Assembly (NCBI GenBank): GCA_020161615.1 | Contig: JAIUPD010000001.1 | Coordinates: 372,001 to 436,000 of the forward strand | Direction: 5' to 3' | Length of the DNA stretch: 64,000 nucleotides | From: Pseudomonadota bacterium | GTDB taxonomy: Bacteria; Pseudomonadota; Alphaproteobacteria; Rhodobacterales; Rhodobacteraceae | In this document: piece after piece, positions 11,925 to 39,264 of the stretch | Layout: each line of letters opens with the position of its first letter | Position numbering within the stretch: position 1 is the stretch's first letter | Notes under the pieces: generated by a model | Databases searched by the model: none | Told to the model about the DNA's origin: nothing | What the model saw: the letters and a program-made list of their open reading frames with translations, nothing else | Program-made: the position numbers and the translations under genes

Positions 11925-11930
11925 CGCGTT

Positions 11931-13688: not shown

Positions 13689-13724
13689 GGTTCAGGCTTT
13701 CCGGGTCGTTCTCGGGTCGTGGTC

Positions 13725-15700: not shown

Positions 15701-15705
15701 AGGGG

Positions 15706-16773: not shown

Positions 16774-16783
16774 CTTTGCGCTC

Positions 16784-16862
16784 CAAATATCCACGGGGAT
16801 TTTCAAGGGGGGCGTGCCCCCCTTGAAGCAGGGGGTGCGGGGGGCGGCAGCCCCCCGCTTCC
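16784..16862 (-). repeat. Intergenic hairpin repeat, copy 3 (inverted)
   Basis: On the minus strand this repeats the order of copy 2: a GC-rich block, then a hairpin, then ATCCCCGTGGATATTTGGAG. The hairpin stem TTCAAGGGGGGC/GCCCCCCTTGAA is a perfect 12 bp at 16802-16827. The stem bases differ from copy 2 but remain paired. Confidence 0.75.
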
Positions 16863-16863: not shown

Positions 16864-17535
16864 TCAGATGTACTTCAGGCCCTTTTCCTCAAGTCGCGGC
16901 CGCATCTTGTAGATGTCGAGCCCCAACTCGCCCGAGGCCAGCTTGACCCGCTTCGCTTCCTCGGCGTCAAGCCGCGCCTGCGCGGCCTTCGCCACCTCGG
17001 CCGCCTTCGCGCGCGGCACGATGACCACGCCGTCGTCATCGGCGATCACCACGTCGCCCGGGTTGACCAGCGCGCCGGCGCAGACCACCGGCACGTTGAC
17101 CGAGCCCAGCGTTTCCTTCACCGTGCCCTGGGCCGAGACCGCGGTCGACCAGACGCCGAAGCCCATGCCGCGCAGGTCGCGCGTGTCCCGCACGCCCGCG
17201 TCGATGATCAGCGCCTTGCAGCCCCGCGCCATGGCCGAGGTCGCCAGGAGGTCGCCGAAATAGCCCATGTCGCAGGGCGAGGTGGGCGCCAGCACCATCA
17301 CATCGCCCGCCTGCAATTGTTCGATCGCCACATGGATCATCCAATTGTCGCCGGGGGGCGCCGAGATGGTCACGGCCGAGCCGCAGATCGTCAGATCCTG
17401 CTGGATCGGGCGCATCTTGCAGCCCATGAGGCCCGTGCGCCCCTGCGCCTCGTGCACCGTGGCGACGCCCGCCTTGCCGAGGGCTTCGATGATCGCCTTC
17501 TCGGCGCGGTCGATGGTCTGGACGACGACTCCCAT
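16864..17535 (-). CDS. galC: 4-carboxy-4-hydroxy-2-oxoadipate aldolase (RraA fold)
   Basis: This enzyme (GalC/LigK/ProA) splits 4-carboxy-4-hydroxy-2-oxoadipate to pyruvate and oxaloacetate, the last step of protocatechuate or gallate 4,5-cleavage. The 223-residue protein has the RraA-like fold with the active-site phrase [14 protein letters not shown] and the C-terminal [17 protein letters not shown], as in class II pyruvate aldolases. It lies between galB and galD. An RNase E inhibitor (RraA) function is unlikely given the neighbours and the length. Confidence 0.9.
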
Positions 17536-17687: not shown

Positions 17688-18422
17688 TCAGAGTTCGTCC
17701 ACCGTGCGCGGGAAGATCGACTCGAAACCCTCGGCGTATTTGCAATCGCGCCCGCCGGACATGCCGCCCGAGTTGCGCTTGAAATGGTTCGCCCGCTGCT
17801 GGGCCACGCGGGTGTAATAATCCCACAGATGCACCTGGCCGTTCATGTGCTCCATGGCGGCACGCTTTTTCTCCCAGACGGGCGTGATGTCCAGGAAGAC
17901 CGAGGGCTTCCAGCCCATCTGCTCGGTCTGGTGCGGCTCGAACAGGTAGACCTGCGGCGCGCCCAGCACCTTCTCGCCCGGGTTGTGGCCCCAGGCCTGG
18001 GCGGTGGCGCGGCATTCCAGCACGATCTGCGTCGTGTTCATGTGGTCCGAGTTATAGGGGTCCCAGCGCGAATGCGACATCAGGAACGCGGGCTGCACGT
18101 CGCGCATGACCTGCACCAGCTTCATGCGGTCGTCGCGGGTGAAATCCATCGGGTAATCGCCGAGGTCGAATTCCACGAGGTCATGCACGCCCAGCACCTT
18201 GGCGGCGGCCTCGGCCTCGGTCTTGCGGATCGACTTCACCTCGTCGAGGGTCTTGCCCTCTTTCCACAGCTTCGCGCTCTCGCCGCGCTCGCCATAGGAC
18301 AGGCACACCACGGTGACGTTGTAGCCCAACTCGGCATGCAGCGCGATCGCCCCGCCGCAGCGCCAGACGAAATCGGCCGCATGGGCGCTGACGATCAGCG
18401 CGGTCTTTTTCTTCTCGGTCAT
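17688..18422 (-). CDS. galB: 4-oxalomesaconate hydratase, PIG-L fold (GalB)
   Basis: The 244-residue protein has the PIG-L/LmbE deacetylase fold: SAHAADFVWRCGGAIA replaces the usual HPDD start, and SHSRWDPYNSDHM holds the later metal ligands. GalB of Pseudomonas putida is a hydratase of this fold, unlike the amidohydrolase-type LigJ, and shares the AHAADF variant. With GalC and GalD it completes 4-oxalomesaconate breakdown. ATG at 18422 follows GGAG; twelve extra residues of open frame are dropped. It is divergent from the DUF1932 gene. Confidence 0.87.
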   Translation of the reverse strand: MTEKKKTALIVSAHAADFVWRCGGAIALHAELGYNVTVVCLSYGERGESAKLWKEGKTLDEVKSIRKTEAEAAAKVLGVHDLVEFDLGDYPMDFTRDDRMKLVQVMRDVQPAFLMSHSRWDPYNSDHMNTTQIVLECRATAQAWGHNPGEKVLGAPQVYLFEPHQTEQMGWKPSVFLDITPVWEKKRAAMEHMNGQVHLWDYYTRVAQQRANHFKRNSGGMSGGRDCKYAEGFESIFPRTVDEL

Positions 18423-18545
18423 GGAAAGCTCCTCCAGATCTGGCCGCACTCTGCACATCCTCGGGGCCGGAAGTCCAATCGGAAAGCCGTGCGCCGGTAT
18501 AAGAGAGTGCTATAGTCGCGCCGCGCAGAGCGGAAGGACACGGCC

Positions 18546-19644: not shown

Positions 19645-21225
19645 TCAGGCGACCATTGGCGCTTCGGCCTTGGCGATGTGGAGGTCCAGCTGCGCCGGGG
19701 CGGCGGCGAGGAAGTGGCGGGCTTCGGGCGTCCCGGCGATGCGGCAGGACAGCCAGGCCTGTACCGCCACCCAGCCCGCGCGCAGCACGCCGTCGGCCAT
19801 CCAGGCCTGCCGCTCGCGGTCGGGCTCGGAGGCGGCGCGGGCGATGAAGGAGGCGAAATCCTCAATCACGGCAAGCGCTTCCGGGTGCGCCGCGCATTCC
19901 GCCCGGGCGCGGGTCAGGAAGACGCCGAGGCCCTTGCCGCCGTCGCCCAGCGTCTGGCGCAGGAAGAAATCCTGCCCCTGCATGCCGGTCGTGCCCTCGT
20001 AGATGGCGTAGACCCTCGCATCGCGCAGCGTCTGCTCCAGCGGGTAATCCTTAGTGAAGCCCGAGCCGCCCAGCACCAGGATCGACTTCGCCGCCGTGTC
20101 GAAGGCCAGTTCCGCGCCGAAATTCTTGATCAGCGGCAGCATCCAGGCGGTGAAGCGGGCCAGATCCTCGTCTTCGCCCGACAGGTCCGCCGCGCAGGCC
20201 GCTTCCAGCAGCGCAAGGCGATAGAGGTCGATGGCGCTTTTCATCTCGATCAGCTGGCGGCGCAGGTCGGGGTGGGTGATGATCGGAACCGGCGGCTCCT
20301 TGGGGTTGCCGCCCTGGCGGCGGTCCTGCGCGTGCTGTTCTGCCACATCGTAGCATTTCAGCGCTGCCCCCAACCCCTGGCAGGCGACCGACAGCCGCAT
20401 GTGGCGGATCATCGAGAACATCTGCGGCAGGCCGCGCCCCTCCTCGCCGATCAGTCGGGCGGGCGCGTCCTCGAACCTCAGCGCGCAGGTGGGCGAGCCG
20501 TGCAGGCCCATCTTCTCCTCGATGCGTTCGCAGGTGACGCCCGGGCCGCGTTCGACCAGAAAGAGGGACAAGCCCCGCGTGCCGGGCGCGTCGCCGGTCC
20601 GGGCCAGCAGACAATGGCCGATGCGGTCGCGCAGATCATGGTCGCCGAAGCTGATCCAGATCTTCTGGCCGCTGACCTTCCAAGTACCGTCCGGTTGTGG
20701 CACGGCGCGGGTGCGGATCCGCCCCACGTCCGAACCTGCGCCGGGCTCCGAGATGCAGATCGTGGCCGAGCGTTGGCCGGCAGCCAGCGCCGGCACCCAA
20801 TCGTCGCGGATCTCGGGCGCGGCCCAGTCGGTCAGCAGCAGCGCCGCCGAGCGGGTACTGACCACCGCCATGTTGAAGGCCGGGCAGGCGCGGTCGAACA
20901 TCGGCCCGGTCGCGGCATAGAGCGCGAGCGGCATGCCCATCCCGCCGAGGTCTTCCGAGACCTCAAGCCCCATCCAGCCGCCCTCGGCCAGCGTGTCGAA
21001 GGCGGGGTGATAGGGCGCGGGGACCCGCACCCGGCCGTCAAGGTAGCGGGCGCCCTCGCGATCCGCGATCACGTCGAGCGGCGCCACGACCTCTTCGGCG
21101 ACCTTCGCGGCTTCGGTCAGGATCGAGTCCAGCGTCTCGTCGTCCAGCGCGCCCCGGGCGCGGCTCCAGTTCGGGGTGCGCGAAAGGGCGTCGCGCATCG
21201 CCTCGGCGTCTTGGCGGTAGGTCAC
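19645..21225 (-). CDS. Acyl-CoA dehydrogenase, large (C-terminal ACDH_C) type
   Basis: The 526-residue flavoprotein has the FAD/substrate motif ICISEPGAGSDVG and the catalytic-base segment YEGTTGMQGQDFF, plus the extra C-terminal domain of the long acyl-CoA dehydrogenases that include DmdC. In this cluster a reasonable role is oxidation of dihydro-hydroxycinnamoyl-CoA (dihydroferulate or phloretate side chains) to the enoyl-CoA. The start is a GTG at 21225 that overlaps the dctM stop as GTGA; the next ATG is eight codons later. A DMSP-pathway role is less likely because the neighbours are feruloyl-CoA genes. Confidence 0.83.
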   Translation of the reverse strand: MTYRQDAEAMRDALSRTPNWSRARGALDDETLDSILTEAAKVAEEVVAPLDVIADREGARYLDGRVRVPAPYHPAFDTLAEGGWMGLEVSEDLGGMGMPLALYAATGPMFDRACPAFNMAVVSTRSAALLLTDWAAPEIRDDWVPALAAGQRSATICISEPGAGSDVGRIRTRAVPQPDGTWKVSGQKIWISFGDHDLRDRIGHCLLARTGDAPGTRGLSLFLVERGPGVTCERIEEKMGLHGSPTCALRFEDAPARLIGEEGRGLPQMFSMIRHMRLSVACQGLGAALKCYDVAEQHAQDRRQGGNPKEPPVPIITHPDLRRQLIEMKSAIDLYRLALLEAACAADLSGEDEDLARFTAWMLPLIKNFGAELAFDTAAKSILVLGGSGFTKDYPLEQTLRDARVYAIYEGTTGMQGQDFFLRQTLGDGGKGLGVFLTRARAECAAHPEALAVIEDFASFIARAASEPDRERQAWMADGVLRAGWVAVQAWLSCRIAGTPEARHFLAAAPAQLDLHIAKAEAPMVA

Positions 21226-22523
21226 ATCAGGCTCGGCAGGTAGAGGATGAAGGCGGGGAAGGCGATGGACAGGATCACCACCACCAGATCGGCCCCCAGG
21301 AACGGCACCACGCCCTTGAAGATCTGCGTCACCGTTGCGTATTGGCTGGCCACGTTTCGGATGACGAAGACGTTCATCCCCACCGGGGGCGTGATCATCC
21401 CGATCTCCAGCAGCTTGACCAGGAGGACGCCGAACCACACCAGGTCGATTCCCTCCATGCGGAAGATCGGCAGCAGCACCGGCAGGGTCACCATCATGGC
21501 GCCGAAGGGTTCCATGAACATGCCGAGGATCAGGTAGATGATCACGACGATGGCCATCAGCTGCCAATAGGGCAGGTCGGCCCCGGCAACGAAGTTGGAC
21601 AGGAAACCGGACAGGCCGGTGAGCCCCAGGAAACGGGTGAACATCGCTGCGCCGACGCCGATGATGAAGAGCGAGGCCGAGGTCTGCAGCGTCTCGATCA
21701 TCGAGATGCGGAAGATGCCCCAGGTCAGGCGTTTCGTCACCACACCGATGACGAGCGATCCCAACGCGCCGACGGCGCCGGCTTCGGTGGCGGTGAACGT
21801 GCCGGTGAAGAGGCCGCCGAAGACGATCCCCATCAGCAGAAGCACCGGCCAGATGTTGAGCAGCGCCTTCCGGGTGTCCAGCCCCTCGGCATCCAGCGGC
21901 CGGGGCGGTGCGATGTCGGGCCTGAGCCAGCAGGTCAAGAGCACGATCACCGAATAGGAGATGGCGGTGACGATGCCGATGGTGATGCCGCCGACGAAGA
22001 CCTTGGTGATCGAGGTCTCGGCGAAGACGCCGTAGACGATCATCAGGATCGAGGGCGGGATCAGCGCGCCGATGGTGCCGCCCGCGGCGATCGAGCCCGA
22101 GGCGAAGCTGGGCGAATAGCCCGAGCGGACCATTTCCGGGATGGCGATCCGGCCCATGGCGGCGGCGGTGGCGAGGGACGAGCCGCAGACCGCGGCGAAG
22201 CCCGAACAGGCGAAGATGGACGAGATGGCCAGCGCGCCGGGCACCCGGCGCAACACGGCTTTCGCGGCTTCGAACAGTCCGGCGGTCAGGCCCGCATGGT
22301 AGCTCACGAAGCCCATCAGCAGGAACATCGGCACGGCCGAGAGGGTCCAGTTGGCGATGAACGAGAAGGGCGTGTTCGAGACGATGCCGATGGCGGGCGT
22401 CAGCCCCAGCATCCAGGCCACGCCCCCGAACGAGACGCCGATCAGGCCGATTGCCACGGGCACCCGCAGGGCCAGCAGCACGAAAAGGACGGCGACGCCC
22501 ATGAAACCGACGGTGATGCTCAT
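21222..22523 (-). CDS. dctM: TRAP transporter large permease (DctM)
   Basis: This 433-residue integral membrane protein has about twelve hydrophobic segments and the DctM-typical ITPPVGMNVFVI near the C-terminus. It forms the transport channel of a TRAP system driven by the sodium or proton gradient. It overlaps dctQ by 4 bp upstream and the acyl-CoA dehydrogenase start downstream, so transport and catabolism are translationally linked. The likely cargo is a hydroxycinnamate or related aromatic acid, judged by context. Confidence 0.92.
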   Translation of the reverse strand: MSITVGFMGVAVLFVLLALRVPVAIGLIGVSFGGVAWMLGLTPAIGIVSNTPFSFIANWTLSAVPMFLLMGFVSYHAGLTAGLFEAAKAVLRRVPGALAISSIFACSGFAAVCGSSLATAAAMGRIAIPEMVRSGYSPSFASGSIAAGGTIGALIPPSILMIVYGVFAETSITKVFVGGITIGIVTAISYSVIVLLTCWLRPDIAPPRPLDAEGLDTRKALLNIWPVLLLMGIVFGGLFTGTFTATEAGAVGALGSLVIGVVTKRLTWGIFRISMIETLQTSASLFIIGVGAAMFTRFLGLTGLSGFLSNFVAGADLPYWQLMAIVVIIYLILGMFMEPFGAMMVTLPVLLPIFRMEGIDLVWFGVLLVKLLEIGMITPPVGMNVFVIRNVASQYATVTQIFKGVVPFLGADLVVVILSIAFPAFILYLPSLM

Positions 22524-23014
22524 ACGCGCGGATCCTTGAGGGGCGAAACGAGACGGATGAAGGTGACCAGCGCGGCCAGGCCGAAGCCCAGGGGCGGGAT
22601 CCAGTAGGCAGGCCAGGTCAGCACGCGGACGTTATTGGCCATCAGGAAGCTGCCGGTCGCGGAATTGCGGATGGCGACCTGCCAGGTGACATAGGCCAGC
22701 ACGCCATAGACGATCATCGAGATCAGCGAGACGATGCGGTCGGAGAGGCGCTTGACGAAGGGGCTCATGAAGCCCTCCAGCACCTCGACCTGCACCATGC
22801 CGCCGGATTTCTCGACCCAGGCGAGCGGGATGAAGGCGAGCGCGACCATGTAGTAATTCGTCACCACCTCGAAGGTGGCGGGGATCGGGCGGTTGGTGAG
22901 GTTGCGCAGGGTGATGTCGGCGGCGACATGCAACATGAGGGCGATGGTGGCGATCGCTCCCAGCAGCGCGAGCAGCGACAGTGCCGCGTCCTCGATCCGT
23001 TCCAGACGGTTCAT
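22520..23014 (-). CDS. dctQ: TRAP transporter small permease (DctQ)
   Basis: The 164-residue protein has four hydrophobic helices typical of DctQ and the usual sequence around DITLRNLTNRPIP in the first periplasmic loop. It bridges the binding protein and DctM. The ATG at 23014 has GGAG upstream. The end overlaps dctM by four bases. Confidence 0.88.
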   Translation of the reverse strand: MNRLERIEDAALSLLALLGAIATIALMLHVAADITLRNLTNRPIPATFEVVTNYYMVALAFIPLAWVEKSGGMVQVEVLEGFMSPFVKRLSDRIVSLISMIVYGVLAYVTWQVAIRNSATGSFLMANNVRVLTWPAYWIPPLGFGLAALVTFIRLVSPLKDPRV

Positions 23015-23089
23015 CGGAAGCTCCGGTTGCCTTGCGGGCCAAGCAGGACAGGAAACCGCCGGGCCCGGAAGGGGCCCGGCGGTCGGGGA

Positions 23090-24217
23090 TCACTGGCCGT
23101 AGGTGGCGTAATCGACGTTCGCCCAGACCGCGTCATAGACGCGCTGCGCCATCTGCACGGGGTCGTTGTCGACCTCGATGGCCACGGCTTCCCACTGGGC
23201 ATAAAGCTCCTGGAAGCGGGCGATGCGATCGGCGGCATCGGCGATGCCGAAACGCTCCTGGGCGATGGTCGCGGCGGTCGCGGCCTCGGTCGCGACGAAC
23301 TCCTGCACGGCGGCGATGAATTCGTCATCGGCCTGATAGAGCTCGATCCCGGCGGCGCGCGCGGCTTCTTCCGCCTCGGCCGGCATGGTGTGGCCCCAGC
23401 GGTTGGTGAAGTCGGCGTTGGCGCGGTTCGCGGCGCGGGCCATGGCGGCGCGGTCCTCGACCGAGAGTTCCGACCAGGTCTGGCCCGAGGTCATGAAGTT
23501 CGAGGTCGCCTGATAAAGGCCCAGCGGCAGGAAGGTGACGTGACGGATCACATCGACCAGCCGGAACGAGATCAGGTCGGCGATCGAGGCCATCGAGCCG
23601 TCGACCACGCCCTGGCTCACCGCCTCGAAGGTGTCGTTGACCGAGATCTGCGCGGGCACGGCGCCGAAATGCTCGGCGAAGCGGGCCCAGGGGCTGCCGC
23701 CCGAGCGCAGGCGCAGGCCTTGCAGGTCCTCGACCGAATGCACCGGACGGGTCGAGAGGATCTCGTAGACGTCGGACGCGCCCGAACCCAGATAGACGAA
23801 GCCGAAATCATGCAGTTCTTGCAGGCAGGGCTCGCATTCGACGATCCACTGGGTCATCGCCGCGGCGGCAGCCTGGCTGTTGCCCGAGGTGAGCGACAGC
23901 TCGCCCGCCAGCGACATATGCGGCAGTTCGGCCGGGAAGTAGAGGGGCAGGAAGTTGCCGACCTCGGCCACCTGGCTTTGCAGCGCGTCCTTCATCTGGC
24001 CCAGGTTCACCACTTCCGGGCCGAGCATCGTGGTGCCGAGGCGGCCTTCCGATTCCTCGGGCAGGTATTGCGCGAAGTTGGTGTAGAGGACGCCGTTCGC
24101 GGGGTGCGCGGGCGGTGCGGCCGGGGCGATGCGAAGGACGCGGTCCTGCGCGGCGGCGCTGAAGGCGAGGACCGACGCGGCCAGCGTCAGCCCGGCAAGT
24201 TTCGTGAGTTTCATCAT
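23090..24217 (-). CDS. dctP: TRAP transporter periplasmic binding protein (DctP family)
   Basis: The 375-residue protein has an N-terminal signal peptide (about residues 1-23, cleavage after FSAAA) and the DctP fold. The region around DLQGLRLRSGGSPWARF (near residue 165) holds the arginine that usually binds the substrate carboxylate. It delivers an acid to DctQM. The two cysteines in VECEPCLQ may form a disulfide. GGAGG precedes the start. The adjacent genes suggest p-coumarate, ferulate or similar as ligand, in line with the TRAP system known for p-coumarate in Rhodopseudomonas palustris. Confidence 0.88.
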   Translation of the reverse strand: MMKLTKLAGLTLAASVLAFSAAAQDRVLRIAPAAPPAHPANGVLYTNFAQYLPEESEGRLGTTMLGPEVVNLGQMKDALQSQVAEVGNFLPLYFPAELPHMSLAGELSLTSGNSQAAAAAMTQWIVECEPCLQELHDFGFVYLGSGASDVYEILSTRPVHSVEDLQGLRLRSGGSPWARFAEHFGAVPAQISVNDTFEAVSQGVVDGSMASIADLISFRLVDVIRHVTFLPLGLYQATSNFMTSGQTWSELSVEDRAAMARAANRANADFTNRWGHTMPAEAEEAARAAGIELYQADDEFIAAVQEFVATEAATAATIAQERFGIADAADRIARFQELYAQWEAVAIEVDNDPVQMAQRVYDAVWANVDYATYGQ

Positions 24218-24245
24218 TGGTCTCCTCCCAAGGACGCCCGATTGC

Positions 24246-25127
24246 TCAGAGGTTCAGCAACCTCTTCGCGTTTTCTTTCAGGATGAGGGGGCGCACCTCG
24301 TCCCGAAAATCGGCTTTCTCGAAATCGGCGAGCCACCGGTCGGGGGTGATGGCCGGCCAGTCCGATCCGAACAGCATCTTCTTGCGCAACATGGTGTTGG
24401 CGTATTGCAGCAGGATCGGCGGGAAATACTTCGGCGACCAGCCCGACAGGTCGATGTAGACGTTGGGCTTGTGCGTCGCGACCGAGAGCGCTTCCTCCTG
24501 CCAGGGGAAGGAGGGATGCGCGAGGATGATCTTCAGGTCGGGGAAATCAACCGCCACATCGTCCAGATACATCGGGTTCGAGAACTTGAGCCGCATCCCC
24601 ATGCCGCCCCGCATCCCCGAGCCGACGCCGGTCTGGCCGGTGTGGAAGAGGGCGATGGCGCCTTCGTCCTGGATCGCCTCATAAAGCTCATAGGCCATGC
24701 GGTCATTGGGGTAGAAGCCCTGCATGGTCGGATGGAACTTGAAGCCCTTCACGCCGAAGTCGCGCACCAGCCGCCGCGCCTCGCGCACGCCGACCTTGCC
24801 CTTCCAGGGGTCGATCGAGGCGAAGGGGATCAGGATGTCGTCGTTCTCGGCACAGATCTGGGCGACTTCCTCGTTGTGGTAGCGCCGGAAGCCCGTCTCG
24901 CGCTCGGCATCGACCGGGAAGATCACCGCGGCGATGCGACGCTCGCGGTAATAGGCGGCGGTATCCTGCACGGTTGGCAGCATGCCCTCGGCGCCGGCCG
25001 GGTTCTTGAAATAGGCAGCCATGCCGGACTGGAACTCGTTATAGCCATCATCCCGGCACGAGTCGCAGGGCTCCTCGGCATGGGTGTGGATGTCGATGGC
25101 GATGATATCGTCGAGATTCAGGGGCAT
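24246..25127 (-). CDS. Amidohydrolase 2 family hydrolase, CouO-like (beta-ketoacyl-CoA cleavage)
   Basis: The 293-residue TIM-barrel protein has the metal motif DIHTHAEEP at residues 11-19, HPTMQGFYPND near 150, AHPSFPWQ near 205, and the terminal FGSDWP. The family includes CouO of Rhodococcus jostii, which cleaves 4-hydroxyphenyl-beta-ketoacyl-CoA to 4-hydroxybenzoate. The surrounding CoA ligase, hydratase and SDR genes match that pathway, which is the main reason for the call. Other ring-fission hydrolases of the fold (LigI, decarboxylases) are less likely here. It overlaps the MarR gene by 10 bp. Confidence 0.75.
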   Translation of the reverse strand: MPLNLDDIIAIDIHTHAEEPCDSCRDDGYNEFQSGMAAYFKNPAGAEGMLPTVQDTAAYYRERRIAAVIFPVDAERETGFRRYHNEEVAQICAENDDILIPFASIDPWKGKVGVREARRLVRDFGVKGFKFHPTMQGFYPNDRMAYELYEAIQDEGAIALFHTGQTGVGSGMRGGMGMRLKFSNPMYLDDVAVDFPDLKIILAHPSFPWQEEALSVATHKPNVYIDLSGWSPKYFPPILLQYANTMLRKKMLFGSDWPAITPDRWLADFEKADFRDEVRPLILKENAKRLLNL

Positions 25128-25594
25128 TCGGGACCCTCGTTGAAGGACAGTTTCTTGAGCAGCGCCAGAAGCGCTGCGTTCTCGGCATCGGTCAGCCCGA
25201 TGCGTTCGGCGCGGTGGACCGACAGGAAGCGCTTGTGGTGCCGGTCGACATGGGCCTGGCCCGCCTGCGTCAGCTCCAGCCGGACCGAGCGGCGGTCCTC
25301 GGGCGGGACGGTGCGCTTGAGGTGCCCCGCGCGGACCAGTCGCTGCACCAGCTTGGTCATATGCGCGGGCTTGATGTTCAGCCTACGGGCCAGCGAGCCC
25401 TGTTTCAGCCCGGGGTTCATGCCCACGACCTGAAGCACCGTGTATTCGCCGGGCCGGACATCGGTCCCGGCGAAATCGCGGAAGAACTGGTCGTAGGCGC
25501 GGGTCTGGGTCATGCGCAGCATGAAGCCGACCGACTCGTTCAACGCGCCCAGTTCGACCGTATCGTCGTCTGCGGTGGTGAAGGGCGCGTTCAT
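25118..25594 (-). CDS. MarR-family regulator, CouR-like
   Basis: The 158-residue protein has the winged-helix core (QGSLARRLNIKPAHMTKLVQ recognition helix and the PEDRRSVRLELT wing). In Rhodopseudomonas and Rhodococcus, CouR represses hydroxycinnamate genes and is released by the CoA thioester. Here it sits inside the operon, 4 bp after the enoyl-CoA hydratase stop and overlapping the CouO-like gene, so it may control its own operon and the divergent ligase. The ATG at 25594 is chosen with GAGG close upstream. Confidence 0.83.
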   Translation of the reverse strand: MNAPFTTADDDTVELGALNESVGFMLRMTQTRAYDQFFRDFAGTDVRPGEYTVLQVVGMNPGLKQGSLARRLNIKPAHMTKLVQRLVRAGHLKRTVPPEDRRSVRLELTQAGQAHVDRHHKRFLSVHRAERIGLTDAENAALLALLKKLSFNEGPECP

Positions 25595-25598
25595 CGCC

Positions 25599-26372
25599 TC
25601 ACCCGTTCGGGTTGGTGACCTTGCCTGCCTTTTTCGACAGGAAGGCATTCAGCCGCGCTTCCGCCTCGGGCGAGGTTGCCGTGAACGAGGCGATGAAACT
25701 TTCGACAAACAGACCGTCGTCCGAGCCCATGTCGGCGATCCGCGGCAGGGCGTGGATGATCGCATAGGTCGAGATTTCGGCATTGGTGGCAGCATGCTTG
25801 GCCAGTTCGATGGCCTTGGCCAGCGCCTCGCCCGCATCGACCACGTAATTGGCGATGCCCCAGCGCTCGGCGGTGTCGGCATCGACCGAGCGGCCGGTGA
25901 GCATCAGGTCGGTCATCCGCGAAACGCCCATCAGCCGGGCCGAGCGCACCGAGGCACCGCCGCCGACGAAGATCCCGCGCTGGCCTTCGGGCAGGGCGAA
26001 GAACGCCGTCCGGTCCGCCACGCGCACATGCACCGACGAGGCCAACTCCAGCCCGCCGCCCACCACCGCGCCGTGCAGCGCCGCGAACCACGGCAGCTTG
26101 CCGCGCTGGATGCGGGCGAAGACCTCGTGCCAGCGCCGCGAGCCGTGCACGCCTTCGAACGGGGTCTTCTTGACGTGTTCGGCCAGATCGAGCCCGGCGC
26201 AGAAATGCGGGCCGTGGCCGTGGATCACGGCGGCCTTGGCGCGCGCCTCGACCTCGGTGATCACGTCGTTCAGTTCTTCGATGAACGCATCCGAAATCGC
26301 GTTGCGCTTCTGCGGACGATTCAAGCCCACAACGGCGACATCGCCGTTATACTCAAGAGTGAGGTAATCCAT
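25599..26372 (-). CDS. Enoyl-CoA hydratase (crotonase family), CouM-like
   Basis: The 257-residue protein has the crotonase oxyanion-hole motifs HFCAGLDL (about 57-64) and GAVVGGGLELA (101-111). It keeps both catalytic glutamates of true hydratases: Glu109 in GGGLELA and Glu129 in LPEGQRG. Hydroxycinnamoyl-CoA hydratase-lyases, which release an aldehyde, lack the first of these. The predicted reaction is addition of water to feruloyl- or coumaroyl-CoA, leaving oxidation to the SDR. It is the first gene of the minus-strand operon, divergent from the feruloyl-CoA synthetase. Confidence 0.85.
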   Translation of the reverse strand: MDYLTLEYNGDVAVVGLNRPQKRNAISDAFIEELNDVITEVEARAKAAVIHGHGPHFCAGLDLAEHVKKTPFEGVHGSRRWHEVFARIQRGKLPWFAALHGAVVGGGLELASSVHVRVADRTAFFALPEGQRGIFVGGGASVRSARLMGVSRMTDLMLTGRSVDADTAERWGIANYVVDAGEALAKAIELAKHAATNAEISTYAIIHALPRIADMGSDDGLFVESFIASFTATSPEAEARLNAFLSKKAGKVTNPNG

Positions 26373-26439
26373 GTCGTGCCCTGTCGCCCTGACGTGTCTG
26401 TGGTGGCGAACCGCTCCCCCCGGGCCGATTCCCGAGGAA

Positions 26440-26506
26440 GTATCCGCGCAAAAAGTATCCGTGTAAACAAACATTCGCTATCCGGGGAAATTGTATCCAT
26501 GTAAAC
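26440..26506. promoter_or_regulatory. Repeated boxes in the divergent hydroxycinnamate promoter
   Basis: Three close copies of a 14-base box occur in 67 bp: GTATCCGCGCAAAA at 26440, GTATCCGTGTAAAC at 26455 and GTATCCATGTAAAC at 26493. A weaker CTATCCGGGGAAAT lies at about 26478. The best copies are imperfect palindromes centred on CRTG. They lie between the hydratase and ligase starts, where CouR-type MarR proteins are known to bind in related clusters. Confidence 0.6.
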
Positions 26507-26528
26507 TTTCTCTCGGGAGGAAGGCATC

Positions 26529-28361
26529 ATGACAGAATCACCCTTGCGCGCCGTCAGGCTGTGGGAACCCGATATCGACTGGGAGCGCCGGGACGACGGT
26601 TCGATCCTGGTCTGGCAGAACGGCAAGCTGGGCGCGTATCCGCCCCGCATCTCGGACCGGATTCACCATTGGGCCGAACAGGCGCCCGACCGCACCTGGA
26701 TGGCCGAACGCGGCCCCTCGGGCGAATGGGAGCGGGTGAGCTATGCCGAGATGCTGGCGCGCGTGCGGTCCATCGGCCAGGCGCTGCTGGCCATGGGGCT
26801 TTCGACCGAACGGCCGCTGATCATCCTGTCCGCCAATTCCGTTGCCCATGCGCTGATGGCGCTGGGTGCGCAATATGTCGGCATCCCCTCGGCCGCCATC
26901 GCCCCCGCCTATTCGCTGGTCGCGGGCGAGTTCGGCAAGCTGATCTCGATCCGCGAGCAGATCACGCCCGGCGCCGTCTTCGTCGAGGATAGCGGCCCCT
27001 TCGCCCGCGCCGTGGGCGAGGTTTTCGGCGACCTGCCTTTGCTGGGCGTCCGGGGCGAGGGGCTGGCCATCGACTGGGCGGCGCTCAACGCGACCCCCGT
27101 CACCCCGGCGGTCGACAAGGCCAATGCCGCGACCGGGCTCGATACGGTGGCGAAATTCCTCTTCACCTCGGGCACCACGGGCAGCCCCAAGGCGGTGATC
27201 ACCACCCAGCGGATGCTCTGCGCCAATATGGAGCAGGTGGTCGATTGCTACGCCTTCCTCAGGGACGAACCGCCGGTGATCCTGGACTGGGCGCCCTGGA
27301 ACCACGTCGCGGCCGGGAATCTGGTCTTCAACGCGGCGATCTGGAACGGCGGCACCTTCTATATCGACGGCGGCCGACCGACGCCGCAGATGATGGCCGA
27401 GACGATCCGCAACCTGCGCGAGGTCGGCACCAACTGGTATTTCAACGTGCCCTTCGGTTATGAGATGCTGGTCGAGGCGATGGACGAGGATCCCGAACTC
27501 GCCCGCGCCTTCTTCTCGAAGCTGAAGTTCAAGTATTACGCGGGTGCCGCCATGGCGGGCCATACCTGGGCGGCGCTGGAGCGGCTGGCGCAGCAGGCCA
27601 CCGGCGAGCGGATCCAGCTTGGCACCGGCCTCGGCTCGACCGAGACGGCGCCCTTCGCGCTGTTCAACACCGATCCCGACGCGGCGCCCGGCAATCTCGG
27701 CGTGCCGGCGAAGGAGATCCTGCTGAAACTGGTGCCCGCCGAGGGCAAATGGGAGGCCCGCGTCAAGGGCCCGAACGTGACGCCCGGCTATTGGCGCAAC
27801 CCCAAGCTCACCGCCGAAGCCTTCGACGACGAAGGCTTCTATTGCCTGGGCGACGCCCTGCGTTTCGCCGATCCCGAGGATCCGTCGAAAGGCTTCTTCT
27901 TCGACGGGCGGGTGGCCGAGAACTTCAAACTCTCGACCGGGACCTGGGTGGGGGTCGGCGCCCTGCGCGCGAAACTGACCGACGCGCTGGGCGGCTATGC
28001 CCGCGACGCGGTGATCGTGGGCGAGGGTGAGGATTGGCTGGGGGCGCTGCTGGTGCCGTTCCGCCCGGCCATCGAGAAGCTGGTGCCGGGCGGCGAGGCG
28101 ATGGGCGATGCCGATCTCTTCAGCCATCCCGCCTTGCGCGCGGAACTGGCCCGGCGTCTTGCGGCCTATAACGCGACCGCCACCGGCTCGTCCCTGCGCG
28201 TGCCGCGGGTCATGATGATGGTGGAGCCGCTCAGCATCGACCGGGGCGAGGTCACGGACAAGGGCTCGGTCAACCAGCGGGCGGTCCGCGCGCATCGGGG
28301 CGATCTGGTGGCGGCGATCTACGCGGGCGATGCGCGGGTCATCGAAAGCGGAAAGGAATAG
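26529..28361 (+). CDS. fcs: Feruloyl-CoA synthetase (hydroxycinnamate-CoA ligase)
   Basis: The enzyme activates ferulate, p-coumarate or caffeate with ATP and CoA. The 610-residue protein has the AMP-binding signature FTSGTTGSPKAVI from residue 212, GLGSTETAPF near 367 and the FDGRVAENFKLSTGTWV hinge near 460. The last motif differs from ordinary acyl-CoA ligases and is typical of the feruloyl-CoA synthetase group. The start has GGGAGGAAGG upstream. It is cotranscribed with the SDR 3 bp later and divergent from the hydratase. Confidence 0.9.
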   Translation: MTESPLRAVRLWEPDIDWERRDDGSILVWQNGKLGAYPPRISDRIHHWAEQAPDRTWMAERGPSGEWERVSYAEMLARVRSIGQALLAMGLSTERPLIILSANSVAHALMALGAQYVGIPSAAIAPAYSLVAGEFGKLISIREQITPGAVFVEDSGPFARAVGEVFGDLPLLGVRGEGLAIDWAALNATPVTPAVDKANAATGLDTVAKFLFTSGTTGSPKAVITTQRMLCANMEQVVDCYAFLRDEPPVILDWAPWNHVAAGNLVFNAAIWNGGTFYIDGGRPTPQMMAETIRNLREVGTNWYFNVPFGYEMLVEAMDEDPELARAFFSKLKFKYYAGAAMAGHTWAALERLAQQATGERIQLGTGLGSTETAPFALFNTDPDAAPGNLGVPAKEILLKLVPAEGKWEARVKGPNVTPGYWRNPKLTAEAFDDEGFYCLGDALRFADPEDPSKGFFFDGRVAENFKLSTGTWVGVGALRAKLTDALGGYARDAVIVGEGEDWLGALLVPFRPAIEKLVPGGEAMGDADLFSHPALRAELARRLAAYNATATGSSLRVPRVMMMVEPLSIDRGEVTDKGSVNQRAVRAHRGDLVAAIYAGDARVIESGKE

Positions 28362-28364
28362 GCG

Positions 28365-29126
28365 ATGCAGATCGAGGGAACGTCCGCGCTGGTCACCGGC
28401 GGGGGCTCGGGACTGGGCGAGGCGACGGCGCGGATGCTGGCCGAGCGGGGGGCGAAAGTCTGCGTGCTGGACCGCGAGGCCGACAAGGGCAGGGCGGTGG
28501 CCGAGGCCATCGGCGGCGTGACCTTTGCCGGCGACGTGACCGCCGAGGGCGATGTGACCGCGGCGCTGGACGCGGCGACGGCGGCGCATGGGGTGCCGCG
28601 GATCGTCGTGAACTGCGCCGGGATCGGCACCGCGGGCCGGGTCCTGGGCCGCGACGGCCCGCTGCCGCTGGAGGTTTTCCAGCGCACGATCACCGTGAAC
28701 CTCGTGGGCAGCTTCAACGTGCTGCGTCTTGCTTCGGCGCGGATGGCCACGGCCGAGCCGCTGCAGGATGGCGAGCGCGGCGTGGTGATCAACACCGCCT
28801 CGGTCGCGGCCTGGGACGGGCAGATCGGCCAGGCCGCCTATGCCGCATCGAAGGGCGGTATCGTGGCCATGTCGCTGCCCATCGCCCGCGAACTGGCCAG
28901 GGTGGGCGTCCGGGTCAACGTGATCGCGCCGGGGATCTTCCTGACGCCCTTGCTCTACACCCTGCCCGAGGAGGCGCAGAAGGCGCTCGCCGCCGATATT
29001 CCCTTCCCGCAGCGGCTGGGCGATCCGGCGGAATTCGCGGATGCCGTCTGCTTCATGGCCACCAACCGCTACGTCAACGGCGAATGCCTGCGGCTGGACG
29101 GCTCGGTCCGGCTGAAGGCGAAGTAA
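28365..29126 (+). CDS. Short-chain dehydrogenase, 3-hydroxyacyl-CoA type (CouN-like)
   Basis: The 253-residue protein has the NAD motif TGGGSGLGEATA, the NCAG segment and the catalytic YAASKGG. Overall it resembles HSD17B10-type 3-hydroxyacyl-CoA dehydrogenases. In the Rhodococcus pathway CouN oxidises 3-hydroxy-3-arylpropionyl-CoA to the beta-keto form, and the gene order here supports the same step. It starts 3 bp after the ligase stop. A general beta-oxidation role is the main alternative. Confidence 0.85.
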   Translation: MQIEGTSALVTGGGSGLGEATARMLAERGAKVCVLDREADKGRAVAEAIGGVTFAGDVTAEGDVTAALDAATAAHGVPRIVVNCAGIGTAGRVLGRDGPLPLEVFQRTITVNLVGSFNVLRLASARMATAEPLQDGERGVVINTASVAAWDGQIGQAAYAASKGGIVAMSLPIARELARVGVRVNVIAPGIFLTPLLYTLPEEAQKALAADIPFPQRLGDPAEFADAVCFMATNRYVNGECLRLDGSVRLKAK

Positions 29127-29310: not shown

Positions 29311-29358
29311 CTCCCTCACCGCACGCGCGCTGGAAAGGGTTTGCGGTGTCTTCGGGAA

Positions 29359-29379
29359 TGTATACATTCACTGTATACA
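29359..29379. promoter_or_regulatory. Paired TGTATACA boxes before the GntR gene
   Basis: Two copies of the palindrome TGTATACA (29359-29366 and 29372-29379) are separated by five bases and lie 13 bp before the GntR start codon. A third copy lies at 30218. The placement suggests autoregulation by the FCD-type GntR protein. Confidence 0.65.
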
Positions 29380-29391: not shown

Positions 29392-30144
29392 ATGGCCGAA
29401 TCCAAATCCGTCAACCTGACCAAGCGCGCCACCTATGAGCTGCGTCAGCGGATCATCCACGGCGGATTGCCCGGCGGCACCCGGCTTTACGAGGTGGCGC
29501 TGAGCGAGGATCTGCAGATTTCCCGCACCCCGGTGCGCGAGGCCATGTCGCGGCTGGCCGAGGAGGGACTTCTGGAACGCGCGCCCGGCGGTGGGTTCCA
29601 GGTGCGCAGCTTCACCCTGCGCGACGTCACCGATGCCATCGAACTCCGGGGCGTGCTGGAAGGCACCGCCGCCCGCCTTGCCGCCGAACAGGGGGCAGAG
29701 CCGCGCGCGCTGGCCGAGATCGGCACGATCCTCGACCGGCTGGACGCCTGTTTCGCCACCGGCACCGTGGGCGCCATCGATTTCGACGGCTACAGCGAGC
29801 TGAACGCGCAATTTCATACCCGGCTGGCGGAACTCTGCCAGAGCCCGGTGATCCTGCGCGAGCTGGAGCGGGTGAAATCCCTGCCCTTCGCCTCGCCCTC
29901 GGCTTTCGTGCTGGGCTCGAACGAAAACGCGCGCTCGTATCATTCGCTGGTCGTGGCGCAGGTGCAGCACCGGGCCATGGTGCAGGCCATCGAGCGGCGC
30001 GAGGGCGCGCGGGCCGAGGCCATCGCCCGCGAACATGCCCGCATCGCCCGGGCCAATCTGGAATCGACCTTTGTCACCGATGCACAGACCCCTGAGGCGA
30101 TGCCCGGGATCGCCCTGATCGTGCGCGAGGGGCGTTCGGCTTGA
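29392..30144 (+). CDS. GntR-family regulator, FCD subfamily
   Basis: The 250-residue protein has an N-terminal winged helix (LQISRTPVREAMSRLAEEGL, about residues 42-61) and a C-terminal all-helical FCD domain with conserved ligand and metal residues (ELNAQFHTRL near 140). FCD regulators commonly sense carboxylic acids. Its neighbours are the ligM gene and a TRAP transporter, and matching operator boxes precede both itself and ligM, so an aromatic acid such as vanillate or syringate is a likely effector. The start at 29392 is chosen because it follows the operator and a GGGGGGAA site. Confidence 0.87.
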   Translation: MAESKSVNLTKRATYELRQRIIHGGLPGGTRLYEVALSEDLQISRTPVREAMSRLAEEGLLERAPGGGFQVRSFTLRDVTDAIELRGVLEGTAARLAAEQGAEPRALAEIGTILDRLDACFATGTVGAIDFDGYSELNAQFHTRLAELCQSPVILRELERVKSLPFASPSAFVLGSNENARSYHSLVVAQVQHRAMVQAIERREGARAEAIAREHARIARANLESTFVTDAQTPEAMPGIALIVREGRSA

Positions 30145-30217
30145 TGCATACAAATTGATGCCGATCCGGCGCCGATCGGTCGAATCCGCTTGCAATGGGG
30201 GCCTCCTCTGAGCAATG

Positions 30218-30225
30218 TGTATACA
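30218..30225. promoter_or_regulatory. TGTATACA box before ligM
   Basis: A single TGTATACA within AATGTGTATACATT lies 25 bp before the ligM start. It matches the pair in front of the GntR gene and is probably an operator for it. Confidence 0.55.
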
Positions 30226-30250
30226 TTCTTGCCTTGGGAGGAGAATCGAG

Positions 30251-31663
30251 ATGGCTGCTACCAGCCTTGAAGCCCTGATCGCGGAGAAGGGCGGCAATCC
30301 CGTCCAGATGCTGCGCAACTCGAAGATCGGCATGTATGTCTATCCGGTCGTCGCGCCCGAATTCTCGAACTGGCGTGTCGAGCAGGAAGCCTGGCGCAAC
30401 AGCGCCGTGCTGTTCGACCAGTCGCACCACATGGACGAGGTCATCGTCGAAGGCCCGCAGGCCACCGAATTCCTCGCCTATCACGGCATCAACGCCTTCG
30501 GGAACTTCGGCCTGAACCGCGCCAAGCACTACGTGCCCGTGACCCCCGCCGGCCATGTCATCGGCGACCACATCATTTTCCGCGAGCGCGAGGACAAGTA
30601 CATCCTCGTCGGCCGCGCCCCGACCTCGAACTGGCTGATGTTCGCTGCCGCCTATGGCAAGTGGAACGTGCGTCTGCGCTATGACCCGCGCAGCCCCAGC
30701 CGCCCGGAAGGCGAGCGCGTCCTGCGCGAGCATTACCGCTTCCAGATCCAGGGCCCCGACGCCAACGCCATCTTCGAGAAGATGAACGGCGGCCCGATCC
30801 CGGACATCAAGTTCTTCCACGTCGATTGGATCAACATCGGCTCGAAGAAGGTGCAGGCGCTGCGTCACGGCATGTCCGGCGCGCCGGGTCTGGAGATCTG
30901 GGGTCCCTACAAGGACAAGGATTACATCCACTCGACCATCCTGCAGGCCGCCCGCGACGCCGGCGTCAACCTGGTCCAGTGCGGCAGCCGCGCCTATTCG
31001 ACCAACACGCTGGAATCGGGCTGGATCCCCTCGCCGCTGCCCGGCATCTACACCGGCGACGGCATGACCAAGGCGTTCCGCGAATGGCTGGGCACCGACA
31101 TGTACGAAGCGGCGGGCGCCATCGGCGGCTCGTTCGTCTCGGACAATATCGAGGATTACTACGTCAACCCGTTCGAACTGGGCTATGACTTCTACATCGG
31201 CTGGAAGAAAGACGATTTCGTCGGCAAGGCCGCGCTGGAGAAGATCAAGGCCGAGGGTCCGAAGCGCAAGAAGGTCACGTTCGAATGGAACCGTGACGAC
31301 GTGCTGAAGGTCATCGCCTCGTCCTTCGAACAGGGCACGCCCTACAAGTGGATCGACTTCCCGCAGCCGAACTATGCCTCGTCCTCGGCCGACATGGTCC
31401 TCAACGAGGCCGGCAAGATGGTCGGCATGTCGATGTTCAACGGCTATTCGTTCAACGAGCGCTGCCTGCTGAGCCTGGGTGTGGTCTCGACCGACGTGCA
31501 GATCGGCGACGTTCTGACCCTGAAATGGGGCGAGCCCGAGCCGACCGGCAAGACCTCGACCGAGACGCACAAACAGGCGGATATCCGGGTCCGCGTGTCG
31601 CCGACGCCCTATTCGTCGGAAGCGCGCACCAATTACGCCGACAGCTGGCGGACCCGCAGCTAA
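30251..31663 (+). CDS. ligM: Tetrahydrofolate-dependent vanillate/3-O-methylgallate O-demethylase (LigM-like)
   Basis: The GcvT-fold enzyme moves an aryl O-methyl group to tetrahydrofolate, giving 5-methyl-THF and a free phenol. The 470-residue length is within one residue of LigM of Sphingobium SYK-6. Tyr29, Tyr31, His60 and Arg122 sit at the numbered positions I recall as active-site residues in the LigM structure, and GSRAYS (Tyr249) is also present. It is preceded by a GntR gene with matching boxes and followed by a terminator. DmdA (DMSP demethylase, about 370 residues) was considered and is a poorer fit. Start chosen at GGGAGGAGA. Confidence 0.87.
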   Translation: MAATSLEALIAEKGGNPVQMLRNSKIGMYVYPVVAPEFSNWRVEQEAWRNSAVLFDQSHHMDEVIVEGPQATEFLAYHGINAFGNFGLNRAKHYVPVTPAGHVIGDHIIFREREDKYILVGRAPTSNWLMFAAAYGKWNVRLRYDPRSPSRPEGERVLREHYRFQIQGPDANAIFEKMNGGPIPDIKFFHVDWINIGSKKVQALRHGMSGAPGLEIWGPYKDKDYIHSTILQAARDAGVNLVQCGSRAYSTNTLESGWIPSPLPGIYTGDGMTKAFREWLGTDMYEAAGAIGGSFVSDNIEDYYVNPFELGYDFYIGWKKDDFVGKAALEKIKAEGPKRKKVTFEWNRDDVLKVIASSFEQGTPYKWIDFPQPNYASSSADMVLNEAGKMVGMSMFNGYSFNERCLLSLGVVSTDVQIGDVLTLKWGEPEPTGKTSTETHKQADIRVRVSPTPYSSEARTNYADSWRTRS

Positions 31664-31704: not shown

Positions 31705-31888
31705 GCTTCGGATGGCGTTCTGCGCCGTCCTGGCCGCATCGGGCGGGCGCGCTGCCGGGAAGGCAGCTATAGCCCGGTCTTATGCCCGGTGCCGCGAAAA
31801 CGATTTTGTCGCGCGCCGTTTCCGGTGATAGTGGCGCGGACGCACGTCGAACCGGGGCATGAAGGCCCCGAACCTGGGAGGAACTGCC

Positions 31889-32878
31889 ATGCTTGACTTC
31901 ACCACCCTGCGCACCGCGGGTGCGGCGCTGGCCGCTGCCGCCGTTCTGGCCGCTCCGGCTGCTGCCACGACCCTGCGCCTGGCCCATTGGGTGCCGCCGC
32001 AGCACACGCTGACCGCTTCGACCATCGAACCGCTGCAGGCCGCCGTGGCCGATGCCGGCGTCGAAATCCAGGTCTATCCGGGCGGCGAACTGGGTGCCGG
32101 CCCCCTGGAGCAATATGTCCGCGCCGTGACCGGCGTGGCCGATATCGTCTGGGGGCTTCAGGGCTATACCTCGTCGCAATTCCCGCGCACCATGATCTCG
32201 GAACTGCCGGGCGCGCTGCCCGAGGGCATGACCGGCTACGACATGCTGTGGAACGCCCAGGAAGCCGGCCTTCTGGACGGCGAATTCCCGGGCACCCGGC
32301 CGCTGGCGCTGTGGCTGTCGGAGCCCAACGTCTTCATCATGCGCGACCATGACATCCGCACCCCGGCCGATATCGCCGGGCTGAAGATCCGCGTCTCGGG
32401 CTCGGCCGCCGCCGCCGCGGTCGAGGCGCTGGGCGCGACGCCGGTGCAGATGCCCGCGGGCGAGATCTACAACGCGCTGCAAACCGGCCTGATCGACGGC
32501 GTGATCACCGGCGCCTCGGCGATCGGCGATTTCCGTCTGGACGAGGTGGCGAACAGCTACACGCTGGGCGCGCCGCTGGGCCGCATCTCGTTCTACCTGG
32601 TCATGAACCAGGGGGCCTATGACGGGCTTTCGGATGACGAGCGCGCCGCGCTCGACGCCATCGCCGGCCGTCCGCTGTCGCAATCGGCCGAGGAAGGCTG
32701 GAACGCCCGCGCCCAGCAGGTCATCGACCAGATCACGGCCGCCGGTGACAACACCGTCTACACGCTGACCCCGGAAGAGGCCGAGGCCTTTGCCGCGCTG
32801 ACCCTGCCGGTCCGCGATGCGGTCGTCGGCACCGTCGATGGCGGCGCCGAGGTCCTGAGCGTGATGCAGGGCCAGTAA
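31889..32878 (+). CDS. dctP: TRAP transporter periplasmic binding protein (DctP family), second system
   Basis: The 329-residue protein has a signal peptide (about residues 1-26, cleavage near AAPAAA) and the DctP fold, with DIAGLKIRVSGSAAAAAVEA carrying the carboxylate-binding arginine. GGGAGGA precedes the start. It leads a dctPQM operon lying between the two O-demethylase genes, so a methoxylated aromatic acid is the likely cargo, by context. It is only distantly similar to the DctP at 23.1-24.2 kb. Confidence 0.88.
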   Translation: MLDFTTLRTAGAALAAAAVLAAPAAATTLRLAHWVPPQHTLTASTIEPLQAAVADAGVEIQVYPGGELGAGPLEQYVRAVTGVADIVWGLQGYTSSQFPRTMISELPGALPEGMTGYDMLWNAQEAGLLDGEFPGTRPLALWLSEPNVFIMRDHDIRTPADIAGLKIRVSGSAAAAAVEALGATPVQMPAGEIYNALQTGLIDGVITGASAIGDFRLDEVANSYTLGAPLGRISFYLVMNQGAYDGLSDDERAALDAIAGRPLSQSAEEGWNARAQQVIDQITAAGDNTVYTLTPEEAEAFAALTLPVRDAVVGTVDGGAEVLSVMQGQ

Positions 32879-35369: not shown

Positions 35370-35373
35370 CCCC

Positions 35374-38356: not shown

Positions 38357-38367
38357 GGAGATCTGAG

Positions 38368-39261: not shown

Positions 39262-39264
39262 AAG

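Follow-up and report, generated by a model that had tools for sequence, protein, structure and literature searches.

Within the window, that is, the whole 64,000-nucleotide stretch of DNA analysed here (C1:372001-436000 of a host genome of 4.87 Mb in 26 contigs), nine genes at 19645-29126, all in open frames, form what we read as a cluster for the degradation of hydroxycinnamates such as ferulate. The genes, some of whose starts were picked by eye, are as follows.

19645..21225, minus strand: acyl-CoA dehydrogenase (526 aa, GTG start), with PF02771/PF02770/PF00441 and a YEGT motif
21222..22523, minus strand: large permease DctM of a tripartite ATP-independent periplasmic (TRAP) transporter, TIGR00786 over cut-off
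22520..23014, minus strand: small TRAP permease DctQ, named from its size and its position between dctP and dctM; a homologue in 27 of 80 loci, and no match in an NCBIfam search
23090..24217, minus strand: TRAP solute-binding protein DctP, a candidate hydroxycinnamate binder; NF037995 over cut-off, best solved relative 4p56 (E 2.7e-25)
24246..25127, minus strand: CouO/HpeF-type amidohydrolase, a predicted aryl-beta-ketoacyl-CoA hydrolase; PF04909, five metal ligands
25118..25594, minus strand: CouR/HcaR-like MarR repressor; best solved relative CouR of Rhodopseudomonas palustris, 6c28 (E 4.7e-16)
25599..26372, minus strand: enoyl-CoA hydratase of the PRK08150 subfamily; NF006013 at 374 bits (cut-off 232), E109 and E129, tree
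26529..28361, plus strand: hydroxycinnamate:CoA ligase, feruloyl-CoA synthase-like; NF009232 (PRK12582) at 698.6 bits (cut-off 777), tree
28365..29126, plus strand: short-chain dehydrogenase/reductase (SDR), a predicted 3-hydroxy-3-arylpropionyl-CoA dehydrogenase; PF00106/PF13561, YAASK motif in the translation

On the minus strand the hydratase is followed by the MarR gene, the amidohydrolase, dctP, dctQ, dctM and the acyl-CoA dehydrogenase, and on the plus strand the ligase is followed by the SDR. Neighbouring frames overlap by 4 bp (acyl-CoA dehydrogenase and dctM), 4 bp (dctM and dctQ) and 10 bp (amidohydrolase and MarR), and the ligase and the SDR are 3 bp apart, which supports the two divergent operons that the original prediction had placed here. 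Its gene content stands, but its coordinates are too narrow, as a gntR gene (29392-30144) and ligM (30251-31663) directly follow. The association of the genes does not look like chance because they co-occur across 80 named loci, the best 80 of 579 amidohydrolase relatives: near the amidohydrolase we found a hydratase in 64, a ligase in 59, a MarR gene in 51, an SDR in 44, an acyl-CoA dehydrogenase in 41 and dctM in 34 (matches within up to 10 kb, E<=1e-10 and at least 50% coverage, some of them of low identity and some loci cut by contig ends).

The hydratase carries glutamate at both crotonase positions, E109 and E129 in the alignment, as do all ten aligned locus relatives and two paralogues on contigs C2 and C6; the first of these positions is T or Q in the genome's own hydroxycinnamoyl-CoA hydratase-lyases (HCHLs), two genes on contig C4. 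On the HCHL model NF006588, with a cut-off of 276, the window crotonase reaches 89.3 bits and the C4 enzymes 405 and 388. In the hydratase tree the window protein stands with those of Pararhodobacter zhoushanensis and Pararhodobacter marinus (support 99), within a 30-row group (support 99) that includes the hydratase of Agrobacterium but neither the C2 and C6 paralogues nor HCHL. On model score, two-glutamate site and tree we reject a reading of the window crotonase as a retro-aldol lyase. The trees come from a quick method applied to 37 loci hand-picked from the 80; the hydratase tree includes all 37 and leaves 18 of its 40 inner branches open, the ligase tree includes 36 and leaves 11 of its 36 open. 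The closest solved relatives of the hydratase are 3hin and then 4izb, which we take to be the methylthioacryloyl-CoA hydratase DmdD; the window protein shares the PRK08150 assignment with DmdD, and its gene context argues against DmdD activity.

The amidohydrolase is present in a single copy, and its metal ligands (H14, H16, H162, H204 and D256) are kept in all 83 aligned homologues. Among the 80 loci kept, the nearest relatives are those of P. zhoushanensis (94% identity) and P. marinus (87%), and the source organism appears to be Pararhodobacter-like. More distant are the proteins of Agrobacterium salinitolerans (81%), of a Pseudomonas putida plasmid (65%) and of Rhodococcus (57%). The last two each have a HAD phosphatase next to them, joined in Rhodococcus by a CoA ligase; the P. 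putida plasmid cluster further carries biotin-carboxylase genes and an acetoacetate-CoA ligase, as the hpe cluster does. HpeF is 95% identical to CouO and is the proposed cleaver of hydroxyphenyl-beta-ketopropionyl-CoA (PMC9618137). On this comparison, the amidohydrolase is found in two kinds of pathway, both of which would cleave an aryl-beta-ketoacyl-CoA, and the window enzyme, as judged from the Agrobacterium and Rhodococcus stand-ins, appears to be a near relative of CouO and of the enzyme in the position of Atu1421 of Agrobacterium fabrum.

The ligase scores 698.6 bits on the PRK12582 model (cut-off 777), next to 710.7 for the Agrobacterium ligase and 798.9 for the C6 paralogue. The ligase tree places the window and Agrobacterium proteins in one 28-row group (support 98) with the C2 and C6 paralogues outside, and the window ligase fits a hydroxycinnamate:CoA ligase of the type of the A. 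fabrum island SpG8-1b and of Rhodococcus Cou, its substrate being predicted. The SDR lies in the ligase operon, as expected of such a cluster. The two paralogous PRK12582-like ligases (C2:82809-84524 and C6:304058-305845) each adjoin a PRK08150 two-glutamate hydratase; with a thiolase alongside on C2 and a 3-hydroxyacyl-CoA dehydrogenase on C6, they possibly serve classical beta-oxidation of other aryl acids. In the window the acyl-CoA dehydrogenase gene stands past the TRAP genes, whereas in the two Rhizobiaceae clusters examined at the level of single genes it stands past the SDR. Its YEGT motif presumably holds the catalytic glutamate, and the enzyme plausibly oxidises dihydro-hydroxycinnamoyl-CoA to hydroxycinnamoyl-CoA, feeding the same route; a limited literature search found no published precedent for this role, for which the phd genes of Corynebacterium glutamicum and the hca genes of Acinetobacter are possible parallels.

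Two sets of candidate operators accompany the cluster and the two genes that follow it.

26455..26468, plus strand: candidate MarR operator, copy 1, GTATCCGTGTAAAC
26493..26506, plus strand: candidate MarR operator, copy 2, GTATCCATGTAAAC
29358..29367, plus strand: Atu1419-type operator, exact ATGTATACAT, ending 24 bp before the gntR start
29392..30144, plus strand: GntR (VanR-type) repressor, an Atu1419 homologue; best solved relative 6z74, Atu1419 of A. fabrum (E 8.9e-73)
30217..30226, plus strand: Atu1419-type operator GTGTATACAT, one mismatch, ending 24 bp before the ligM start
30251..31663, plus strand: LigM, tetrahydrofolate-dependent vanillate/3-O-methylgallate O-demethylase; NF047885 at 625.7 bits (cut-off 580), 5x1i (E 2.9e-163)

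The two exact GTWTCCRTGTAAAC copies between hydratase and ligase are the only sites in the genome with fewer than two mismatches; those with two are at noise level, 12 against 10 in a reversed-pattern control. The underlying 14-bp imperfect inverted repeat, GTTTCCATGTAAAC, occurs with at most two mismatches in 34 of 44 divergent hydratase-ligase intergenic regions; for 100 shuffles the mean was 0.06. It was picked by eye from three loci (L002, L015 and L016), and when these and the window are left out, 30 of the remaining 40 regions match equally well, although the loci share descent and the 40 regions are therefore not independent tests. We take the repeat as a candidate MarR box. The second set corresponds to the operator sequence of Atu1419, ATGTATACAT (PMC7797058). 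For this operator 0.14 matches would be expected in the window; its exact form occurs five times in the genome and the reversed pattern not at all. On C4, an exact copy precedes the first ATG of ligA by 81 bp. Those on contigs C11 and C20 are near genes without evident link, and the one on C13 (C13:108500-114500, near 2884) precedes a gene for a thiamine-diphosphate enzyme that may also belong to the GntR regulon; its neighbours, identified by eye, encode a TRAP-like binding protein and an FAD-linked oxidase. Taken together, the operators outline a concrete regulon in which the hydroxycinnamate steps would be under MarR and demethylation and ring cleavage under GntR.

From gene content and order, homology, active-site residues and conserved sites, we conclude that the cluster very probably serves a CoA-dependent, beta-oxidative deacetylation of hydroxycinnamates, as an alphaproteobacterial representative of the SpG8-1b/Cou type, and we would predict its reactions, ligands and regulatory effects as follows. 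The TRAP system would import ferulate or p-coumarate and the ligase would form the CoA thioester; the hydratase would add water to the double bond, with no retro-aldol cleavage, the SDR would oxidise the beta-hydroxyl to a ketone, and the metal-dependent amidohydrolase would release acetyl-CoA together with the aromatic acid (vanillate or 4-hydroxybenzoate). Vanillin would not be an intermediate. LigM would turn vanillate into protocatechuate, to be followed by 4,5-ring cleavage (ligAB on C4, the lower genes at 15.7-18.5 kb of the window), and the acyl-CoA dehydrogenase probably channels dihydro-hydroxycinnamoyl-CoA into the same route. MarR probably acts at the two GTWTCCRTGTAAAC sites to repress both of the divergent operons and would be released by the CoA thioester, and GntR probably represses its own gene, ligM and the ligAB operon through ATGTATACAT. 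On the central claim of a non-aldehyde route, with SDR and hydrolase replacing the retro-aldol cleavage, the original prediction agrees with hydratase residues, metal ligands, regulators, operators, trees and synteny alike.

Several points weigh against this conclusion. PMC7797058 names Atu1421 a beta-keto-thiolase; that it is the same amidohydrolase we infer from gene order and a Rhizobium annotation. The candidate MarR box is unlike the CouR box of Rhodococcus jostii RHA1 (cATTGA-N5-TCAATg). The genome holds two further two-glutamate hydratases of the PRK08150 type (C2 and C6), and since the C6 ligase passes the PRK12582 cut-off and the window ligase does not, a simple naming of the latter as the maker of feruloyl-CoA is weakened. 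Homologues of the hydrolase also occur with no ligase or hydratase nearby (e.g., L037, L056 and L025), and in one genome of the family, G046, a homologue of 70% identity stands beside an HCHL cluster. Finally, the comparisons used the Agrobacterium relative in place of the CouL/M/N/O and Atu1415-1421 sequences. In G046, the amidohydrolase and an acyl-CoA dehydrogenase are divergent from a vdh-HCHL-ligase set (L098, 4650-16258), with P450-like and MFS-like genes identified by eye.

The alternatives turn on an aldehyde route encoded elsewhere in the genome. An operon on C4 (C4:318000-335000, 11903-16445) consists of an aldehyde dehydrogenase, a first HCHL and a fused two-domain acyl-CoA dehydrogenase, and a second HCHL (L082, 6082-6930) lies about 8 kb from the first; both HCHLs pass the NCBIfam cut-off. 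The aldehyde dehydrogenase is a candidate vanillin dehydrogenase by position, its best NCBIfam match being to the succinate-semialdehyde dehydrogenase subfamily, below cut-off. An organism lacking the aldehyde route is ruled out by these genes, and "vanillin-free" can thus not be claimed for the organism as a whole. The absence of vanillin dehydrogenase in the original prediction holds for the window, where none of the genome's 33 aldehyde dehydrogenase (PF00171) matches falls, but not for the genome, where an HCHL lies beside an aldehyde dehydrogenase.

Given these genes, we would put only slightly below an even chance on both routes running and sharing the window ligase, part of the hydroxycinnamoyl-CoA going to the window hydratase and part to the C4 HCHLs, or with substrates that differ. 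Only three close full-length ligase matches were found in the genome (window, C2 and C6) and none of them is on C4, where the two HCHLs and the aldehyde dehydrogenase are; another genome of the family, G050, has a similar pair of regions. Other CoA ligases could, however, serve the HCHLs, as several contigs carry weaker partial matches and PRK12582 gives the C6 ligase a higher score, and no operator common to both routes was found. The candidate MarR operator in particular, at up to two mismatches, does not occur on C4, and nothing therefore ties the HCHLs to the window regulon. In G050, matches to both HCHLs and to the aldehyde dehydrogenase lie in one stretch (L100).

A more specific proposal, which we regard as possible but doubtful, is that the routes are split by substrate, the HCHLs acting on 4-hydroxycinnamates and the cluster, with its acyl-CoA dehydrogenase and a DesA-like demethylase, on saturated, 4-blocked and syringyl aryl-propanoids, and that at the same time the Atu1419-type repressor has been rewired, coupling demethylation by LigM to ligAB through a shared operator; Atu1419 itself is released by methylene-tetrahydrofolate in A. 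fabrum. Rather improbable is that the natural substrate is altogether another compound, whether an aryl-propenoate such as sinapate, dimethoxycinnamate or caffeate, or a saturated arylpropionate brought into the route by the acyl-CoA dehydrogenase. Beta-oxidative chemistry needs no free 4-hydroxyl, which would allow such substrates. The acyl-CoA dehydrogenase is, as noted, conserved near the cluster, a DesA/LigM-like demethylase lies 5.3 kb beyond ligM, and the analogous PipU-X route works on piperic acid (PMC12753220). On the other hand, the CouR/HcaR-like MarR, LigM and the Atu1419-type operators point to ferulate, and A. fabrum SpG8-1b degrades ferulate and p-coumarate (PMC7797058).

That the cluster itself is a retro-aldol Fcs/Ech/Vdh system, its crotonase yielding vanillin or 4-hydroxybenzaldehyde for a distant aldehyde dehydrogenase and its SDR and amidohydrolase employed otherwise, is highly improbable: the C4 genes and the neighbourhood in G046 speak for it, but the crotonase is far under the HCHL cut-off, has the two-glutamate hydratase site and groups with the Agrobacterium hydratase apart from HCHL, no aldehyde dehydrogenase is adjacent, C4 lacks the candidate MarR operator, and no HCHL was found at E<=1e-75 in the three genomes searched (P. 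marinus, A. salinitolerans and that of locus L070). P. marinus holds all 16 genes tested in the neighbourhood survey, and the cluster thus does not depend on HCHL.

The beta-oxidative cluster is flanked by further genes of aromatic degradation.

15706..16806, minus strand: 4-oxalomesaconate tautomerase; NF033377 at 516.3 (cut-off 440)
16864..17535, minus strand: 4-carboxy-4-hydroxy-2-oxoadipate aldolase; NF006731 and TIGR02798 over cut-offs
17688..18458, minus strand: PIG-L family protein; PF02585
18546..19382, plus strand: DUF1932/NAD-binding dehydrogenase; PF09130 and PF03446, a match in 3 of the 80 loci
31859..34689, plus strand: second TRAP set, possibly for vanillate (dctP 31859-32878, dctQ 32879-33388, dctM to 34689); PF06808 and PF03480
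35685-36920: PcaQ-like LysR gene (below cut-off), divergent to the second demethylase
36980..38356, plus strand: second demethylase of the DesA/LigM kind, possibly for syringate; PF01571, below the DesA and LigM cut-offs
38368..39261, plus strand: Atu1418-type protein, with a proposed role in 5-methyl-tetrahydrofolate recycling; 57% identical over 300 residues to the protein that A. salinitolerans has in the Atu1418 position

The PIG-L gene has no equivalog over the NCBIfam cut-off; from its position and known precedent we take it to be a probable 4-oxalomesaconate hydratase of the GalB type. The ring-cleaving ligAB genes are on C4 (C4:363000-369000, 503-2827), LigA and LigB passing their NCBIfam cut-offs, and the third gene of that operon, a GFO/IDH/MocA oxidoreductase, is by position presumably ligC. 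By this assignment, the window carries most of the path from hydroxycinnamate to central metabolism through protocatechuate 4,5-cleavage, with ligAB on C4. The DctP of the second TRAP set has matches of at least 76% in loci L001, L004, L015 and L080. The second demethylase reaches 567.7 bits on the DesA model NF047633 (cut-off 800) and 519.3 on the LigM model NF047885 (cut-off 580). The Atu1418-type gene begins 11 bp after it and 6.7 kb past ligM. Its product has no Pfam or NCBIfam match; the A. salinitolerans protein likewise has no Pfam match for methylenetetrahydrofolate reductase, and the homologue surfaced by direct comparison, which ruled out the absence of such a gene suggested by the Pfam search. 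No operator copy, at up to two mismatches, lies near it. Together with the LysR gene and the second demethylase it may form a syringate branch (34600-39300). Elsewhere in the window, 51046-62982 carries Calvin-cycle genes on the minus strand (aldolase, GAPDH, transketolase, FBPase, a VWA protein, a CbbQ-like AAA protein and the RuBisCO large chain), and 40078-43809 with 47720-49051 holds genes for DUF1513, imelysin (M75), di-haem oxidoreductase and DUF1501 proteins, a set that may have to do with iron or other metals.

In a sample of the window's family with one genome for each of 120 genera, and with the hydrolase representing the cluster, the hydrolase was found in 32 genera (E<=1e-80) and HCHL in at least three (E<=1e-75, up to 18 candidates scored per genome); the three, G000 (the genome of the window), G046 and G050, hold both. 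From this proportion, the family would seem to use the vanillin-free route as a rule, and the survey makes that route directly testable. Questions remain, according to a 2025 study, about the degradation of coumaric and ferulic acid in the marine Roseobacter clade (PMC12442348), which lends the cluster moderate interest; our literature searches found no published Rhodobacterales version, which is not proof of absence. One locus outside the family by its label, L070 (JAFKDC010000002.1, Enemella evansiae, Actinomycetota), is probably misnamed, since its genome (G120) shares match coordinates and score with a genome of the window's family (G002); the sample around G120, 22 of 299 genomes, covers the window's phylum and was not used as actinobacterial evidence.

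Among known systems, HpeEF of the Hpe pathway for acetovanillone is comparable through HpeF, a CouO-like beta-ketoacyl-CoA hydrolase (PMC9618137), but no kinase, carboxylase or phosphatase genes of that pathway were seen in the window cluster. The Cou locus of R. palustris (CouAB/CouR with TarPQM) provides the closest solved relative of the window MarR and also has TRAP genes in a hydroxycinnamate locus; it has been termed non-beta-oxidative (PMC3610893) and, in a later review, beta-oxidative (PMC10458429). In R. jostii RHA1, CouL/M/N/O/R are proposed to perform the same reactions, with the amidohydrolase CouO at the last step (PMC4737184), although operon layout and operator differ; the likeness is drawn from the published description. 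Closer is a cluster on plasmid LR606150.1 of Rhizobium sp. Q54, with acyl-CoA dehydrogenase, SDR and ligase divergent from hydratase, MarR, TRAP and hydrolase genes. It differs in having the acyl-CoA dehydrogenase after the SDR and not after the TRAP genes, and no gntR-ligM pair within the stretch considered; its hydrolase is already annotated "4-hydroxyphenyl-beta-ketoacyl-CoA hydrolase" in the public record.

The most extensive likeness is to SpG8-1b of A. fabrum (Atu1415-1422, with HcaR and Atu1419), where Atu1416, Atu1417, Atu1415 and Atu1421 turn ferulate into vanillate and Atu1420 makes protocatechuate (PMC7797058). Shared are the SDR, ligase, hydratase, hydrolase, MarR, GntR, LigM and Atu1418-type genes, the divergence of hydratase and ligase, and the ATGTATACAT operators. 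The window cluster differs in that its hydrolase operon includes TRAP genes, the gntR-ligM pair follows the SDR, the Atu1418-type gene stands behind the second demethylase instead of beside gntR, and an operator also precedes ligA of 4,5-ring cleavage. As its Atu1418-type gene is neither beside gntR nor near an operator, we regard the cluster as a relative of SpG8-1b and not as the same island. The order in A. salinitolerans (MarR, hydrolase, LigM, GntR, Atu1418-type gene, hydratase, ligase, SDR and acyl-CoA dehydrogenase), whose GntR matches Atu1419 at E 1.7e-137, is that of SpG8-1b plus the acyl-CoA dehydrogenase. The original prediction gave Rhodococcus as the source from which such a route is known; with its description in A. 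fabrum (PMC7797058) and the hydrolase in 32 of the 120 genera of the window's own family, the route is not confined to Rhodococcus, and the SpG8-1b order in Agrobacterium and the annotation in Rhizobium mean that the kind is already known, also in the Alphaproteobacteria.

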